27,741 nucleotides of DNA, from IMG/VR virus record IMGVR_UViG_3300036939_000073, positions 1 to 27,741 of that record; one strand, 5' to 3'. Numbering within the stretch: position 1 is the stretch's first letter; every line of letters begins with the position of its first letter. This DNA is from a virus. The notes below the pieces were generated by a model, which was not told the origin of the DNA, ran no database searches, and saw nothing but the letters and a program-made list of their open reading frames with translations. Of the stretch, positions 456 through 20,523 are shown one piece after another. The translations under genes and the position numbers were made by a program.

Positions 456-756
456 ATGGGAAACGAAAGAGCACCTGGCGGGCATGCGTTCTGTCTGCCC
501 CCGGGCACGAGGGTAGGGGACTGGCGGGTGTTGGGTTGCCGGGGCCATGGCGCCTACGGAGTCGTCTATCTGGCGGTCCGAGAGGGCCAGGAAGCAGCGG
601 GGCCCGTGGCCCTCAAGCTGGCCCTATATCCATGGGATCCGCGCTTCATGCGAGAAGTGGCGTTGCTATCGCTGGTTCAGCACCCGGGAGTCCCACGACT
701 TCTCGGCCAGGGCTTCTGGAGGCGCCCGGAGGGCAGCACGCATCCGTACGTAGTAC
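456..756 (+). pseudogene. Truncated Ser/Thr protein kinase (N-lobe only)
   Basis: The frame opened by the ATG at 456 encodes the start of a Hanks-type (eukaryotic-like) kinase domain. Visible are the glycine-rich loop GHGAYGVVY at residues 30-38, the ATP-anchoring lysine in VALK at residue 54, and a helix-C glutamate at about 67. The HPYVV at residues 96-100 normally leads into the hinge. After that point the sequence stops resembling a kinase: there is no hinge, no HRD catalytic loop and no DFG motif. The frame runs on with unrelated residues to a stop at 852-854. The C-lobe is lost, so the product cannot be an active kinase. Such kinases are abundant in myxobacteria, so this is probably a host gene cut by element insertion; an old decayed fragment is the alternative. 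Confidence 0.75.
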
Positions 757-794
757 TTGGACAGGGTTGGTATCTTTCCTTCCCTACATGCTCC

Positions 795-829
795 AACCCC
801 CTGTACTTCCGAGCAGTCCGCAGGGGGTT
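795..829. other. 9-bp inverted repeat at the kinase/phage junction
   Basis: AACCCCCTG at 795-803 and CAGGGGGTT at 821-829 are perfect reverse complements separated by 17 bases. The element sits between the kinase fragment and the first phage operon. It could form an RNA hairpin acting as terminator or leader structure, or be an operator. No U-tract follows it, so an intrinsic terminator is not well supported. Confidence 0.5.
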
Positions 830-924
830 ACCCCAGTCCATCCGCTCAGCCTGAGAGAAAGGGTGAAGGGGGTGAGGTAGAGGCGGAGTGCACCTGCCTG
901 GAGTTCTCACCCCTGGGCCAGGAG

Positions 925-3094: not shown

Positions 3095-4704
3095 GGGCTC
3101 GCCAAAGGCAACGGGGCCTGGTGGTGGACTTGTTCGCCGGAGGAGGCGGGGCGAGCACGGGCATTGAGGCGGCCCTGGGCCGGCAGGTGGACATTGCCAT
3201 CAACCACAGCGCCACGGCGCTTGCGGTGCACAAGGCCAACCACCCGCTGACCCAGCACCTCACCGCAGACATATGGGAGGTGAAGCCAAGGGAGGCCACA
3301 CGCGGGCGGCCGGTGGAGGTGCTCTGGGCCTCGCCGGACTGCACCCACTTCTCCGTGGCCAAGGGCGGCACCCCGCGGCAGAAGAACATCCGTTCGCTGG
3401 CAGAGGTGGTTGTGGAGTGGGCCCAGGCCGTGCGCCCGCGTGTCATCTTCGTGGAGAACGTGGCGGAGTTCCGAGGGTGGGGTCCGCTCGGGGACGATGG
3501 GCGCCCCATCAAGGCGCGCATGGGGGAACTCTTCGAGCGGTGGAGCGCCCGGCTGGAGCTGCTCGGGTACGCGGTGGAGCATCGGATCCTCGACGCCTCC
3601 CTGTACGGAGCCCCTACGCGCCGCCGCCGGCTGTTCATCGTGGCCCGGTGTGATGGGGAGCCCATCCGCTGGCCGGAGCCCACCCACGGGCCTGGGCGAC
3701 TGCCGCTACGCACTGCGGCCGAGTGCATCGACTGGAGCCTGCCCTGTCCCTCCATCTTCGAGCGCAAGCGGCCCCTGGCGGAGAAGACGCTGAGGCGGAT
3801 TGCTCTGGGGATTCAGCGTTTCGTGCTGGAGAACCCAAGGCCGTTCGTCGTAGGCATCGACCACCAGAGCAGTGCAAGCGTTGGGACCGCAGTGGATGAG
3901 CCGCTCTCCACGGTCACCGCCAAGGCCCGGCATGCGGTGGTGTCCCCGTTCATTGCAAAGGTGAACCACGGAGAGGATGCCAAGACGGGACCCAGGGTGC
4001 ACGGGCCCCAGGAGCCGCTCACCACCGTCACCGCCTCGGCGCGAGGCCATGCCGTAGTGGCCCCTACGCTGATTCAGACGGGCTATGGGGAGCGCCCCGG
4101 GCAGCGCCCGAGGCACCTCGACCTGCACGAACCGCTGGGCACCGTGGTGGCGCAGGGCCAGAAGCACGCCCTGGTGGCCGCCTTCCTGGCCAAGCATTAC
4201 GGCGGTGTGGTGGGCGCCCCGTTCGACGGGCGGCCGATGGACACCATTACTGCCACCGACCACCACTCGCTCGTCACGTCCACGCTGGTGAAGCTGCGCG
4301 GGGAGTGCCATGGCGCGGACGTCGAGGAGCCACTGCCTACTGTCACCGCCTCTGGCAACCACCTGGCCGAAGTCCGGGCCTTTCTGACGACGTACTACGG
4401 GAGCGGCTCCACGGGGCAGGCGGTGGACAAGCCGCTGCGCACCATCACCTCCTTGGCGCGGCTGGGGCTGGTGCTGGTGGAGGGCGTTGAGCACCAAATC
4501 ATCGACATTGGGATGCGGATGCTGGAGCCGCATGAACTCCTGCGCGCGCAGTTCGGGAAGTTCGCCGAGGCCTACGACATGAGCGCCGCCACCTCGAAGG
4601 CGGAGAAGGTGCGCCTCATTGGCAACAGCGTCTGCCCCGAGGTGGCAGAGGCGCTCGTGAGGGCCAACCTGGGCGAGCTGGCGGCGGAAAGGAGGGCGGC
4701 ATGA
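3091..4704 (+). CDS. C5-cytosine DNA methyltransferase with internal repeat array
   Basis: This 537-residue enzyme should transfer a methyl group from S-adenosylmethionine to cytosine C5 in DNA, probably modifying phage DNA. Motif I is DLFAGGGGAS (13-22). Motif IV is SPDC with catalytic C84, in place of the usual PCQ; this variant occurs in a group of phage methyltransferases. The ENV of motif VI is at 122-124, and the C-terminal motif GNSVCPEVAEAL at 511-522 corresponds to motif X. Where the target-recognition domain is expected there is a tandem array: PLSTVTA, PLTTVTA, PLGTVVA, PMDTITA, PLPTVTA and PLRTITS at residues 271, 309, 348, 382, 414 and 448. No cognate restriction enzyme is adjacent, so it is a solitary enzyme. 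The ATGA overlap at 3091 defines the start. Confidence 0.9.
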   Translation: MRARQRQRGLVVDLFAGGGGASTGIEAALGRQVDIAINHSATALAVHKANHPLTQHLTADIWEVKPREATRGRPVEVLWASPDCTHFSVAKGGTPRQKNIRSLAEVVVEWAQAVRPRVIFVENVAEFRGWGPLGDDGRPIKARMGELFERWSARLELLGYAVEHRILDASLYGAPTRRRRLFIVARCDGEPIRWPEPTHGPGRLPLRTAAECIDWSLPCPSIFERKRPLAEKTLRRIALGIQRFVLENPRPFVVGIDHQSSASVGTAVDEPLSTVTAKARHAVVSPFIAKVNHGEDAKTGPRVHGPQEPLTTVTASARGHAVVAPTLIQTGYGERPGQRPRHLDLHEPLGTVVAQGQKHALVAAFLAKHYGGVVGAPFDGRPMDTITATDHHSLVTSTLVKLRGECHGADVEEPLPTVTASGNHLAEVRAFLTTYYGSGSTGQAVDKPLRTITSLARLGLVLVEGVEHQIIDIGMRMLEPHELLRAQFGKFAEAYDMSAATSKAEKVRLIGNSVCPEVAEALVRANLGELAAERRAA

Positions 4705-5324
4705 GCCCGCCCCAGGCCTGGCTGCTGGAGACCGAGGCGCCGTTGTTCCGTACCTTCGTTCTCGATCCCCCGTGGCTCGAAGCGGGAGGCGGAGGACGTG
4801 GAGCCCAGAACCACTACCCGCTGCTCAAGGCCGAGGAGATGCCCGCCACCATCCGCAAGTCCGGTCTCTTCAGGCCCTACCCCAACGCCCACATGTACCT
4901 GTGGGTGACCAACAACTTCCTGGAGGACGGGCTGTGGCTCATGCGCCAGCTCGGCTTCCGGTACGTCACCAACCTCCCCTGGAACAAGCCAGGCAAGGGC
5001 ATCGGCCAATACTTCCGGGGCGAGCACGAGCTGCTGCTCTTCGGTGTTCACGGGGATGGCATGAGCCCGGACGTGATGACCGACAGGAGAGACCTCGGCA
5101 CTCGCATCGATGCGGACTGGGTACGGGCAGGAGAAGGCGGGCCGCGCATCCACTCCGCCAAGCCTCCCGAGGCCTACGAGCGCATTCAAGCGCGAAGCAA
5201 TGGGCCGTACCTGGAGATGTTCGCCAGGGGAAAGCCCCGCGGGCCCCAGTGGCAGGTGTGGGGCAACGAAGCGCAGCCAAAGGAAGAGCTGAACACCACC
5301 TCACCGCAGGAGCACATCAGATGA
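4701..5324 (+). CDS. MT-A70 family adenine-N6 DNA methyltransferase
   Basis: The product is 207 residues. The DPPW catalytic motif lies at 22-25, preceded by a hydrophobic strand. Further downstream are WVTNNFL (68-74), NLPWNKPGKG (91-100), the HSAKP segment (151-155) and YLEMFAR (170-176), all typical of phage MT-A70 enzymes. It is expected to methylate adenine N6 in DNA and, together with the C5 enzyme just upstream, may give the phage two kinds of base modification. A strong ribosome site (GAAAGGAGGG) precedes the ATG at 4701, which overlaps the previous stop as ATGA. No nuclease partner is seen, so protection from host restriction is the likeliest role; the recognition sequence cannot be inferred. 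Confidence 0.9.
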   Translation: MSPPQAWLLETEAPLFRTFVLDPPWLEAGGGGRGAQNHYPLLKAEEMPATIRKSGLFRPYPNAHMYLWVTNNFLEDGLWLMRQLGFRYVTNLPWNKPGKGIGQYFRGEHELLLFGVHGDGMSPDVMTDRRDLGTRIDADWVRAGEGGPRIHSAKPPEAYERIQARSNGPYLEMFARGKPRGPQWQVWGNEAQPKEELNTTSPQEHIR

Positions 5325-16081: not shown

Positions 16082-16106
16082 GCCCCACCGCGAAGGAGCC
16101 CAGCCC

Positions 16107-16547
16107 ATGCCGGAACCGCAGGTTGCACACGAAGTCGCCATTCACATCACCGCCGCGAGCAACACCGCGCTCACCAACAGCAACAAGCTCGAGGAGAGCA
16201 GCACCTTTCAGCTGGCCATTGCCACGGAGAAGGCAGAGCGGAAGCTGCTCAATTCGGACGGGTGGACCAAGACGAAGGCCGTGCACCACTCCGGCTCCGG
16301 CTCCATGAGCGGCAACGTCATCCGCGGCTCGGCGGCGCAGGGGACGATGCGGACGGCGAGCAGCACGGGCAGCCTGGCCTACGTCCACGTCATCCATACG
16401 CCGGATGCCGAGACGGGCGAGGAGAAGGGCAAGCTCTACACCATCCTGATCGAGAGCTACGAAGAGAGCTTCGAGGCGGGAAGCCTGGTGACTTTCAACG
16501 CCTCCTTCACTCTCGACGGCGCCCCCACCGCCATCCTGGCGAGCTGA
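16107..16547 (+). CDS. Major tail (tube) protein
   Basis: The product is 146 residues, predicted almost entirely beta: HEVAIHITAASNTALT, FQLAIATEKAERKLL, GSMSGNVIRG, YTILIESYEESFEAG, LVTFNASFTLDG. This repeated-strand composition, the typical length and the place directly before the frameshifted chaperone pair identify it as the tail tube subunit, which polymerises around the tape measure. The ATG at 16107 is used; a GAAGGAG ribosome site lies a few bases upstream. No Ig-like extra domain is present. Confidence 0.8.
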   Translation: MPEPQVAHEVAIHITAASNTALTNSNKLEESSTFQLAIATEKAERKLLNSDGWTKTKAVHHSGSGSMSGNVIRGSAAQGTMRTASSTGSLAYVHVIHTPDAETGEEKGKLYTILIESYEESFEAGSLVTFNASFTLDGAPTAILAS

Positions 16548-16575
16548 GCCGGCACCACCACCACCGAGGACACCC

Positions 16576-16959
16576 ATGAACGACAACAGCACCGAGGCAA
16601 TCAAGAAGAGCCTGCTCAACGCCCCCTGGCGGAAGGTGGGCGAGCTCACCGTGGAGGGCGAGGGCGGCCGCGTGGAGCTCATCATCCGCCGGCCACCGCC
16701 GAAGCACTCGGCGGACATGCTCCAGAAGCTGCGCGAGGACAAGCTGGTGGATGAGAAGGGGGACCCAGTCTCCAACGAGGCGGGCCTGGAGATGGCGGCG
16801 CGCATGTTCGCACCGATGCTCTTCCTGCCCGGCGGAGTGCGCGCCCTCCTCAGCCCCGCCGAGCTGCTCGAGGCGCCCTGGTTCGAGGAGGCGGCCGAGG
16901 CCTGCAAGGAAGCCCTCAAGGGCACCAAGGCCATGGTGGAGGACGCGAAGGGAAACTGA
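16576..16959 (+). CDS. Tail assembly chaperone, short form (G-like)
   Basis: The product is 127 residues, acidic and helical (MAARMFAPMLFLPGGVRALL, then EEAAEACKEALKG), encoded between the major tail protein and the tape measure. In siphoviruses this position holds a chaperone pair that coats the tape measure during tail assembly, the longer form being made by -1 frameshifting. The last codons are AAG GGA AAC TGA and contain the slippery heptamer G GGA AAC at 16950-16956. The stop follows at once, with a stem-loop beyond it. The ATG at 16576 has a CGAGGACA ribosome site. Confidence 0.88.
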   Translation: MNDNSTEAIKKSLLNAPWRKVGELTVEGEGGRVELIIRRPPPKHSADMLQKLREDKLVDEKGDPVSNEAGLEMAARMFAPMLFLPGGVRALLSPAELLEAPWFEEAAEACKEALKGTKAMVEDAKGN

Positions 16960-17192
16960 GAGGCGACCCCGACCTGCTCCTCTCGGTGGGGGTCGCCATC
17001 CGCCTGGGACGAAGGCCCGCGGAGGTGCTGCGCTGGCCACTCGAGGAGGTGGCGCTGGTGGCCGCCTACTGCGCCATGGAGGCAGAGGACTTCAAGCAGG
17101 GCAAGCCCACCGCTTCCCCGGGGCCCACGGCGGGCGCCGGGAAGGTGAAGACGGAAACGGTGACGTGGGTGGCAGGCAAGAAGAGGGGCTGA
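16576..17192 (+). CDS. Tail assembly chaperone, frameshifted long form (GT-like)
   Basis: A -1 shift on GGGAAAC at 16950-16956 moves ribosomes into the frame that continues CTG AGA GGC from 16956 and runs open to a stop at 17190-17192. The extension is 78 residues (LRGDPDLLLSVGVAIRLGRRP and onward, with LEEVALVAAYCAMEAEDF), giving a total of about 205 residues. The extension has no good independent start: the first GTG (16986) would cut into a conserved-looking helix and lacks a ribosome site. This matches the known G/GT organisation conserved in tailed phages, in which the T part binds the tube protein and G the tape measure. Confidence 0.88.
16950..16997 (+). promoter_or_regulatory. Programmed -1 frameshift signal
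   Basis: The slippery heptamer GGGAAAC (16950-16956) is in the correct register (G GGA AAC). The stop TGA and two further bases form a 5-base spacer. GGCGACCCC (16962-16970) and GGGGTCGCC (16989-16997) then form a perfect 9-bp stem with an 18-base loop. All three classical parts of a -1 frameshift site are present. Confidence 0.9.
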
Positions 17193-17199
17193 GGAAGCC

Positions 17200-19731
17200 A
17201 TGGCTGGAGCGCTCAAGGCAGGCGGGGTGTACGTGGCGGTGTCCGCCGCCATTGGCGAATTCGCCAAGGCGATGGGGGACGTTGTCCGCACCGTGGAGCA
17301 GACCGCCAAGAAGGTGAAGGAGAGCGCCCAGGCGGTGGCGAACGTGGGCACCCTCTTCGCGGCCGGCATGGGCGGAGCGGTGCTCGCGGCGGCGGAGTCC
17401 AACGCCGCCATGCGAGCGGACTTGGAGAAGCTCAAGAGCTACCTGTACACGCTGGCGGCGGACTTGGGGGATGCCTTCGGCCCCTTCCTCCGGGAGCTCA
17501 CCACCACGGTGGGCTCGGTGGTAGGCGCCTTCCAGCGCCTCTCCCCCGAGGTGAAGGCGAGCGTGGCCCGACTGGTGGTGCTGGTGGCCGCCACGGGTGC
17601 GGTGGCGGGCGTGGTGAGCCGCGGGGCCGGGCTGATGGAGGGCCTGGCCAAGGCAGCCGGCGCCGTGCTGGTGCCGGCCCTCAACGCCGCCTCGGTGGCC
17701 ACCAAGGCCCTGGGGAAGGCGGGGGGCGCGGTGTTCCCCAAGCTCGGCAAGGACGTGGCGGCCATGGAGGCCGGCATGGTGAAGAGCCTGGCGCGCATGG
17801 CCCTGGGCTTCGGCGCGGTGCTGCTGCCCGTGCTGGCTGTGGCTGCCGCCGTTACTGCCCTCGCCCTGCTAGCCGGAGCCCTCTATGAGGCGTGGAACGA
17901 CTCCAGCACCGGCATGAAGGACGCGGTGCTCTCCGCCTGGGAGCGCCTCAAGGGGCTGGGCAAGCGGCTGGCGGAAGCCCTGGCCAGCTGGTGGGAGAGC
18001 CTCAAGGGCTTCGTTCTTGCGGGCCTCAGGCTGGTGCTGGAGGCGGTGGCTGGGAAGGTGCGCGCCATCGGCAAGGCGGTGGCGCCGCTGGCGCGCGGGC
18101 TGGGGCTGGACGGAATCGCCAGCACCTACGAAGACATGCAGCAGCTCACCGGAGACAAGCTGCTGAGCAGCCTGCAGGAGGGCGCCACCTTCCTTGCGGA
18201 CAAGGCCTCGGAGGCGGCTGGCGCCGTGGCGGGCGCGGCCCGAAAAGTGGCCGACAGCGTAGGCAAGGGCTTCGCCTACGCCGGGAAGGGCCTCGGGCGG
18301 GCATGGGCGGACTCCGGCATCGAGGAGAGGCTCAAGCAGCTCAAGGGGTTGTTCCAGGGCGTGGTGGGCGGGCGCGGCCCGGAGATGCGACGCCCGGAGG
18401 AAACGCCCGAGGAACTGGCAGCGGCCGGGGGTTCGGCGCGCACTGTTGGGCGGATGGGTATGCCCGGGGGGTTCGCCGCGATCCGCAATGAGCTGGCCAC
18501 CGGCTGGGGGCTCATGGCCCAGGCCGCGCGCACCCGCTACCTCGCGGCCATGAAGGAGACGCGGGCGCTGGCGGAAGCCATCTACCAGTCCGTCACCGCC
18601 GCGCGCACGGCCATCGTCTCCAGGTTCATCAGCAGGCTGGAGAGCAGCCTCATGGGGCTGGCGGAGGCCGCGCAGCAGGGCTTCACAGCCGGAGGGCCGC
18701 AGGGCGCCGTGGCGGCGGTGGGGGTGGAACTGCTCATGCGGAGCCAGGCCTTCCAGGAGCTCATGAGCATTGTGGCCGCCATCGTCCAGAAGGTGGCGGA
18801 TGCGCTGGGTGCCATCATCACCCCGTTGCAGGAGTGGTACGCCGCCCTCTTCCTCGTGGTGGACGCGGTGCTGCAGGCGCTGGTGCCCGTGCTGCAGCAG
18901 TTCGGGCAGGTGGTGGAGCCGCTGGTGCCCATCGTGGTGCTGGTGGCGGAGGTGCTCTCCGCGCTCGGCCCGGTGCTCACCCTGCTCATGCAGGTGCTCA
19001 ACCCGCTCATGGTGGCCTTCGAGCTGCTGGCAGGCCCCGCCCTCAAGGGGCTGTTCGACGTGGTGAAATTCCTGGCCCGGGTGGTGCTCACCATCGTCAA
19101 GGCTATTGGGGACGTGTGGAACGGAATCCTGGAAGCCATTCAGAGCGTGTTCCGCAGCCTCGCGAAGATTTCGGTGCTGGGCGCCAAGCCCCTGGGCTTC
19201 CTCAACGGGTGGGCGGATGGGCTGGAGGGCGCCATGGTGGACACGGACGCACTGGCCAACAGCTTGCGCCGGCTCAACGGCCTCACCTACGAGGCAGCCC
19301 AGGAGCGCGCCCGGGAGACTGCCGCCGTGCTCCGCAACCGCGAGGCGGTGGCGAAGGCCACCGAGTCGCTCACCAACGTCCCCAACGCGTGGAAGGTGGC
19401 CCTGGCGCGCTTCGAGGCGCAGGATGCGCAGCAGGGCCCCGGCGCCACGCCCACGGTGCCGGTGCCCACCAGCCCCTCCATGCCCGCGGGCAACGGGGCC
19501 ACGTGGACTCCCTCTACTCCTGGCAACCGGCCACCGCCTCCAGGGGCGGGTGCCGGAGGTGGGGACTTGCTGGCCCCAGCGCGTGGGGCCCTGGTGAATA
19601 CGGTGAACATTTCCGCCTTCTCCCCCACCGAGGCCATGGAGCGCTTCACCGGCTTCTTCGACAGGATGCAGTTCCGCGCTACCGGCACCCGCGGCGTGGC
19701 AGGCCGGTACGCGCTGCCGGAGGCCCCGTAG
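17200..19731 (+). CDS. Tail tape measure protein
   Basis: This is the longest gene of the window (843 residues), directly after the chaperone pair as in most siphoviruses. The N-terminal 200 residues are Ala-rich and helical. A hydrophobic segment lies at about 207-229 (VLAVAAAVTALALLAGALY), and a second long hydrophobic region at about 550-640 (LVPIVVLVAEVLSAL, VLTLLMQVLNPLMVAFELL, RVVLTIVKAIGDVW). Such membrane-like stretches are usual in tape measures and may insert into the host membrane during DNA entry. A Pro/Ser/Thr-rich linker is at about 745-790. No peptidase or transglycosylase motif was seen. The ATG at 17200 has AGGAAG upstream. Confidence 0.9.
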   Translation: MAGALKAGGVYVAVSAAIGEFAKAMGDVVRTVEQTAKKVKESAQAVANVGTLFAAGMGGAVLAAAESNAAMRADLEKLKSYLYTLAADLGDAFGPFLRELTTTVGSVVGAFQRLSPEVKASVARLVVLVAATGAVAGVVSRGAGLMEGLAKAAGAVLVPALNAASVATKALGKAGGAVFPKLGKDVAAMEAGMVKSLARMALGFGAVLLPVLAVAAAVTALALLAGALYEAWNDSSTGMKDAVLSAWERLKGLGKRLAEALASWWESLKGFVLAGLRLVLEAVAGKVRAIGKAVAPLARGLGLDGIASTYEDMQQLTGDKLLSSLQEGATFLADKASEAAGAVAGAARKVADSVGKGFAYAGKGLGRAWADSGIEERLKQLKGLFQGVVGGRGPEMRRPEETPEELAAAGGSARTVGRMGMPGGFAAIRNELATGWGLMAQAARTRYLAAMKETRALAEAIYQSVTAARTAIVSRFISRLESSLMGLAEAAQQGFTAGGPQGAVAAVGVELLMRSQAFQELMSIVAAIVQKVADALGAIITPLQEWYAALFLVVDAVLQALVPVLQQFGQVVEPLVPIVVLVAEVLSALGPVLTLLMQVLNPLMVAFELLAGPALKGLFDVVKFLARVVLTIVKAIGDVWNGILEAIQSVFRSLAKISVLGAKPLGFLNGWADGLEGAMVDTDALANSLRRLNGLTYEAAQERARETAAVLRNREAVAKATESLTNVPNAWKVALARFEAQDAQQGPGATPTVPVPTSPSMPAGNGATWTPSTPGNRPPPPGAGAGGGDLLAPARGALVNTVNISAFSPTEAMERFTGFFDRMQFRATGTRGVAGRYALPEAP

Positions 19732-19734
19732 GCC

Positions 19735-20523
19735 ATGGCGCACCTAAGCGTGAATGGCATTGCGCTGGAGTGCAGCACCTCGGCATGGGAGCCGATGCGG
19801 CTGGGCGAGGTGGCGCGCTCGCTCAACGGCGCGCCGCGCAGCTCCGTGCGCGTGCGCAAGCGAGACTACCGCTTCACCACGGACACCACCGGCACCGAGG
19901 TGGAGGAGGCGCAGGCCCTGCAGAGCCTCGTTGAGGGCGAGGGCCATGCGTGGACTTTCGAGAGTGACTTGGCCTCCTCGCGAGGCCTTCTGCCGCTTGC
20001 CACCAGTGGCACGGTGACGGTGGGCCTGGTGGGGGGCGTGCACTCTCAGTGCCTCTTCGCCCAAGCCGGGGCGGAGGTGACGTGGGCGCTCGGTCACAGT
20101 GGCTCATGGACGGCGCTCTACTTCCGCGAGGAGAGCGGAACCTTCGCCCACTACGTGGTGCGCAACACCCTTGGCACGGTGGAGGTGTGGCGCAATGACG
20201 AGAAGACGGATGTGGACCCAGGCGTCATCACGCTGCCGGGCGGCAACCTCCAGCTGGAGGCGGCTGGGGCGGATGAGACGATTGATGATCTCGTCTTCCT
20301 CCCATACGCGGTGCCAGACAACTGGCCTGGGCCCCTCTGGGAGTACCACATGCTCAACGAGTGGCCGGCGCTGCCCTTCGTGCGAGCCTCCGGCCCAGGC
20401 GTGCCCAGCGGCGGCATCGCCGCCATCGGCCAGGTAGGCACCGTGCAGCGGGTGCACATGGTGCAGGAGGATGGCACCTTCGGCGTGGGCGAGGTGTTCG
20501 ACTTCAGCCTCATCGCCACCTGA
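19735..20523 (+). CDS. Distal tail (Dit-like) protein
   Basis: The product is 262 residues, mainly beta. The N-terminus (LSVNGIALECSTSAWEP, then RDYRFTTDTT) fits a small beta domain. The middle has a jelly-roll-like run (VTWALGHSGSWTALYFREES, then TVEVWRNDEKTDVDPG). Lying between the tape measure and the large hub protein, it is best read as the distal tail protein that forms the ring at the tail tip. It starts three bases after the tape-measure stop, with GGAGG upstream. The assignment rests on order and general composition. Confidence 0.65.
   Translation: MAHLSVNGIALECSTSAWEPMRLGEVARSLNGAPRSSVRVRKRDYRFTTDTTGTEVEEAQALQSLVEGEGHAWTFESDLASSRGLLPLATSGTVTVGLVGGVHSQCLFAQAGAEVTWALGHSGSWTALYFREESGTFAHYVVRNTLGTVEVWRNDEKTDVDPGVITLPGGNLQLEAAGADETIDDLVFLPYAVPDNWPGPLWEYHMLNEWPALPFVRASGPGVPSGGIAAIGQVGTVQRVHMVQEDGTFGVGEVFDFSLIAT

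Follow-up and report, generated by a model that had tools for sequence, protein, structure and literature searches.

Upstream of the tape measure gene of this virus, the short tail assembly chaperone gene G is followed by an open frame, T, that lacks an obvious start of its own, and the question raised by the locus is whether T is translated as a -1 extension of G, by programmed slippage of the ribosome, or by some other route. The stretch of DNA analysed (the window) comes from a virus record and has a length of 27,741 bp; positions given below refer to the window, and the features listed for it all lie on the plus strand. A reading of the sequence alone (hereafter the sequence-only reading) had proposed a complete frameshift site for a G/GT pair of tail chaperones, and this proposal was followed up by comparison with relatives.

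Gene order and predicted functions

The genes 5' of G were predicted to encode terminase, portal and HK97-type capsid proteins, with the gene for the major tail (tube) protein (16095-16547, ATG in frame at about 16107) directly before G; the latter was assigned through PF09393 (E 3e-6), PF06199 (E 1e-5) and phrog_1407/158. Gene G (16576-16959) is an open reading frame with a GAGG-type ribosome site and is predicted to encode a zero-frame tail assembly chaperone of 127 amino acids; its match to the chaperone family phrog_344 is weak (E 0.0047) and extends over G alone, and seven of 18 members of the window's family match phrog_344 (best, 9e-6). The tape measure protein gene (17200-19731; 843 amino acids) was assigned through phrog_991 (E 1.6e-17) and ten further matches, mostly to tail length tape measure proteins. 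In the window and in relatives, G and T are preceded by the gene for the major tail protein and followed by the tape measure gene. A profile of the window family gave chance matches only when compared with PDB sequences, and the AlphaFold model obtained for G from its sequence alone was of too low a quality for use (pLDDT 56.6).

A kinase-like fragment at the edge of the window is 79-82% identical to Myxococcaceae proteins, and therefore points to a myxobacterial host for the phage. This truncated serine/threonine-kinase-like fragment (456-854, plus strand) is probably either host DNA at the prophage edge or the remnant of a captured gene. It led to the Myxococcaceae genomes, among which the nearest relatives of the phage contig were then located by whole-genome searches.

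Relatives and the slippery heptamer

Relatives were sought with the predicted G-T protein as query, through protein similarity alone and with no use of the heptamer. Of 145 genomes of the order that were searched whole, 34 gave G-T homologues at E values up to 0.01, and a profile search of the phylum gave such homologues in about 34 of its 195 genomes (Myxococcota); when the 50 distinct junctions obtained were clustered by protein identity, seven clusters resulted at 50% and 20 at 70%. Searches in IMG/VR for close relatives through G, terminase and portal, and tblastn searches of INPHARED phages with G, tape measure and major tail protein, gave nothing usable, and a capsid scan of the genome contigs for relatives was likewise without success.

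The heptamer GGGAAAC occupies positions 16950-16956 (plus strand) and, as read directly from the gene-G codons AAG_GGA_AAC, has the register G_GGA_AAC. The zero-frame stop TGA (16957-16959) abuts it, and G ends in AAG_GGA_AAC_TGA; the spacer of five bases (TGAGA, 16957-16961) opens with this stop, and in most relatives 5-6 nt separate the heptamer from the shared helix. The register, the adjoining stop and the spacer were thus all correctly described by the sequence-only reading. In the window, four in-register heptamers of the type X_XXY_YYZ were counted among 5644 codon positions in 17 chosen ORFs, and a heptamer placed by chance on the final two codons of a gene would be expected about once in 1000 cases; its conservation throughout the family leaves no doubt that the arrangement of the junction is beyond chance.

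For this comparison, the family alignment was split at the junction into a G HMM and a T HMM, each of which was placed independently at every locus. T lies exactly -1 to G in 50/50 distinct junctions, and an in-register X_XXY_YYZ heptamer is located at the join each time (GGGAAAC, 35; GGGAAAA, 10; AAAAAAC, 4; GGGAAAG, 1); at one locus (L096) the end of the G alignment is ambiguous, and the same heptamer is found at the T start. Substitutions in the heptamer among the clusters are confined to these four slippery types, and the glycine codon GGA, which is required for GGGAAAN, represents only ~12% of the glycine codons of the family. The stop follows directly behind the heptamer in 15 of the 50 loci. 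The alignment with relatives, proposed as a check by the earlier reading, hence yielded no relative devoid of both elements, with the heptamer kept at every locus and the stem (see below) at 48 of them; on these comparisons, the predicted frameshift site is real and strongly conserved in myxobacterial prophages.

Three further observations were made on heptamers. In one subgroup (L077, L087, L088, L090-L097) the junction reads G_GGA_AAA_TAG, with a different slippery codon and a different stop, the stop again abutting the heptamer. One locus in a Hyalangium genome (L099; G001:C79, about 16200-19900) has no tape measure gene between G/T and an integrase-like ORF, and looks like a prophage remnant that still retains heptamer and stem. 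Elsewhere in the window, a second in-register heptamer, GGGAAAG (5228-5234, plus strand), is located near the end of the gene at 4701-5324, and the -1 frame behind it continues for 120 codons and extends into the following gene; this is probably a chance occurrence, because that gene is provided with an ATG of its own, which overlaps the stop.

Predicted stimulatory hairpin

Directly behind the spacer, GGCGACCCC (16962-16970) is fully complementary to GGGGTCGCC (16989-16997), and encloses a loop of 18 nt (hairpin, 16962-16997, plus strand). The perfect 9-bp stem of the sequence-only reading was recovered exactly by RNA folding (-29.4 kcal/mol over 54 nt, z -2.66). Once the protein sequence is fixed, the window stem on its own is not an unlikely one (P about 0.08 in synonymous shuffles), and its significance derives from the comparison of the 50 loci, the sequences of which align gap-free. 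At least seven of the nine pairs are formed in the shared register in 48 of 50 loci, and the mean number of Watson-Crick pairs is 8.14 of 9, versus 5.68 in a null model in which the T protein was kept fixed and codons were shuffled by family usage (400 replicates; highest null mean, 6.28). The two exceptions (L046 and L089) retain the heptamer and have lost the shared stem (5/9 pairs); a different short hairpin may be present in its place.

Covariation was also evident in the stem. Paired cells amount to 86.7%, and 38 cells are changed on both sides (shuffled mean, 13.3), counts which are not independent events since the loci share descent, with the pattern being present across deep groups. 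Such both-sided changes were seen at six of ten stem pairs, and the covariation score is 0.297 versus 0.016-0.087 in slid registers. Covariation is clearest where a codon for Asp, His or Asn is paired through its first base with the wobble base of Val on the other side of the stem: His CAC stands opposite Val GTG (21/21), Asp GAC opposite Val GTC (18) or GTT (4), which together make up its Val partners (22/22), and Asn AAC opposite Val GTT (3/3), a codon that accounts for only six of 360 Val codons elsewhere in G. Protein-coding constraint cannot explain this choice of synonymous Val codon across the predicted stem.

It had also been suggested that the 18-nt loop might engage in a pseudoknot. 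The loop is long enough for an H-type pseudoknot as the stimulator, and isolated complementarities do exist (e.g. 9 bp in L047); however, loop-to-downstream pairing across the family (13.8) is matched by codon-shuffled controls (14.2) and has no conserved position, and in several relatives the loop folds as an extension of the stem. This suggestion is thus left unsupported and a pseudoknot is improbable, the conserved hairpin being the preferred stimulator. For an upstream stimulator resembling a Shine-Dalgarno sequence, the pairing with the anti-SD was within the expectation from codon usage (8 of 60 null replicates were as strong).

Predicted translation of the T frame

Starting with the final base of the heptamer, the -1 frame runs through 78 codons (16956-17189) before it is closed by TGA (17190-17192), in agreement with the length first noted; the extension T (16956-17192, plus strand), whose homologues start exactly at this codon in relatives, is predicted to give a fusion protein GT of 205 amino acids. 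The sole T-frame start near the window junction is GTG 16986, located in the 3' stem region and without a Shine-Dalgarno-like sequence, and none was found in the 150 nt upstream of the junction. Similarly, in 29 of the 50 loci ATG, GTG and TTG are all absent from the T frame over 150 nt upstream; two loci have only a weak GAGG-type site near a T-frame start, which is not conserved, and at L025 and L046 only 4-5 codons of open T frame precede the slip site. The lack of a good start, claimed for the window, therefore extends to its relatives, and no convincing T start with a ribosome site was detected in the 50 loci.

These observations bear on the explanation of T as a separate gene, translated from its own start or through coupling at the G stop, with the heptamer being incidental. 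The G stop is close to the T start, and GTG codons occur nearby in many relatives, as does GTG 16986 ten codons into the window T; but these GTGs are without ribosome sites (one exception, L084), most of them coincide with Val codons that are conserved in the helix region, and the conservation of the T protein sets in upstream of them, exactly at the slip codon. The late opening of the frame in L025 and L046, and the heptamer kept in 50/50 junctions, for which a separate gene has no need, also argue against this explanation, which we regard as very unlikely; T is better read as an extension of G.

Slip codon and host tRNAs

The second slip codon is AAC in 39, AAA in 10 and AAG in one of the 50 junctions, whereas AAG greatly outnumbers AAA as a lysine codon (277 versus 21). 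In E. coli, heptamers ending in AAG are far slipperier than those ending in AAC, which has been tied to a single lysine tRNA (PMC5009743). Two genomes with members of the family, G001 (which holds the Hyalangium versicolor locus L003) and G111, each encode tRNA-Lys(CUU) and tRNA-Lys(UUU), as well as tRNA-Asn(GUU) and tRNA-Gly(UCC). As tRNA-Lys(CUU) is not expected to re-pair on AAA, the avoidance of AAG makes sense. We tentatively suggest, from these two genomes and a one-sided count, that the slip codon may be fitted to the host tRNAs, with AAG avoided on account of tRNA-Lys(CUU) and slippage via tRNA-Asn on AAC or tRNA-Lys(UUU) on AAA, and that the stop, in the 15 loci where it abuts the heptamer, may further tune the ratio of products by slow termination; the odds are somewhat against this suggestion as a whole. 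The idea that the hosts lack queuosine on tRNA-Asn, which might ease slippage on AAC, was rejected, as a tgt-family match above the cut-off was found in 138 of 142 genomes.

In each of the same two genomes, about 24 tRNA genes are densely packed into 2.2 kb (L156, G001:C5:67000-69200; L137 in G111); this array is set apart from the ordinary tRNA genes, contains many duplicates of them, and is perhaps located on a mobile element.

Homopolymer runs for transcriptional slippage are usually longer than G3A3 or A6. The runs at the junctions thus fall below this length, and the arrangement of a tandem-slip heptamer with a hairpin 5-6 nt behind it is a ribosomal one, for which reasons a frame change made by RNA polymerase rather than the ribosome is given hardly any weight, even though such slippage replaces ribosomal frameshifting in Thermus dnaX, where there are two lysine tRNAs (PMC5009743), as in the two hosts checked here. 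A sequencing error or decayed gene, conceivable for an uncultivated contig with a remnant-like relative that is without the tape measure gene (L017/L099), is already refuted by the same -1 break at the same codon in 50 distinct loci of about 34 independently assembled genomes, with covariation in the stem.

Proposed mechanism

The G/GT arrangement of tail chaperones put forward for this locus is borne out by the gene order, the PHROG chaperone match, and the conserved heptamer and stem, and the site is almost certainly a working -1 programmed ribosomal frameshift signal of the lambda G/GT type. Slippage itself, its rate, and the roles of G and GT are inferred from the sequence, as follows. The majority of ribosomes would stop at the TGA behind the heptamer and release the 127-aa chaperone G. 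A minority would meet the 9-bp hairpin on the side where the mRNA enters and be paused there while GGA is occupied by tRNA-Gly and AAC by tRNA-Asn; both tRNAs would move back by one base, to GGG and AAA, the next codon would be CTG, and reading would continue through T to yield the 205-aa fusion GT. By analogy to lambda, G would coat the tape measure protein in many copies, the T tail of the few GT molecules would recruit the major tail protein, and the slip rate would set the G:GT ratio for tail assembly.

The frameshift rate is probably a few per cent, judged from the G:GT ratio of 30:1 in lambda (PMC5009743) and from an HK97-like chaperone cluster with about 7% frameshifting, tested experimentally (PMC3711429). 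The rate in the natural host is uncertain, because heptamers with AAC slip much less than those with AAG in E. coli (PMC5009743).

Comparison with known systems

No paper on G/GT frameshift signals in Myxococcales was found in searches of an open-access library, and the junctions described here are new, well-supported members of this group, from myxobacterial prophages, with unusually clean covariation evidence. For annotation, G and T are to be joined in such prophages, and the choice of heptamer provides a natural test of the influence of host lysine tRNAs on slippery sites. The mechanism is the classic one already known from phage lambda, in otherwise ordinary phage biology.

Among known systems, the phrog_344 chaperones are matched by part of the family, in the window through G alone. 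The g-t frameshifts of the haloarchaeal siphoviruses HCTV-1, -2 and -5 (PMC5009743) are also among the closest known systems, with archaeal hosts. The -1 frameshift of E. coli dnaX shares the heptamer and the downstream hairpin; it also has an upstream Shine-Dalgarno-like stimulator, whereas none beyond codon-usage expectation is seen in the window family. Sequence similarity to lambda G or T was not detectable by hhalign profile comparison (probability 0.2-0.3%). In its layout, the lambda G/GT pair (G_GGA_AAG) is like that of the window: G carries a heptamer for -1 tandem slippage at its end, T occupies the -1 frame, and the pair is flanked by the genes for the major tail protein and the tape measure; the window differs in having AAC in place of the lambda AAG as the second slip codon, a stop that abuts the heptamer, and, at 5-6 nt, a strong hairpin that is conserved.
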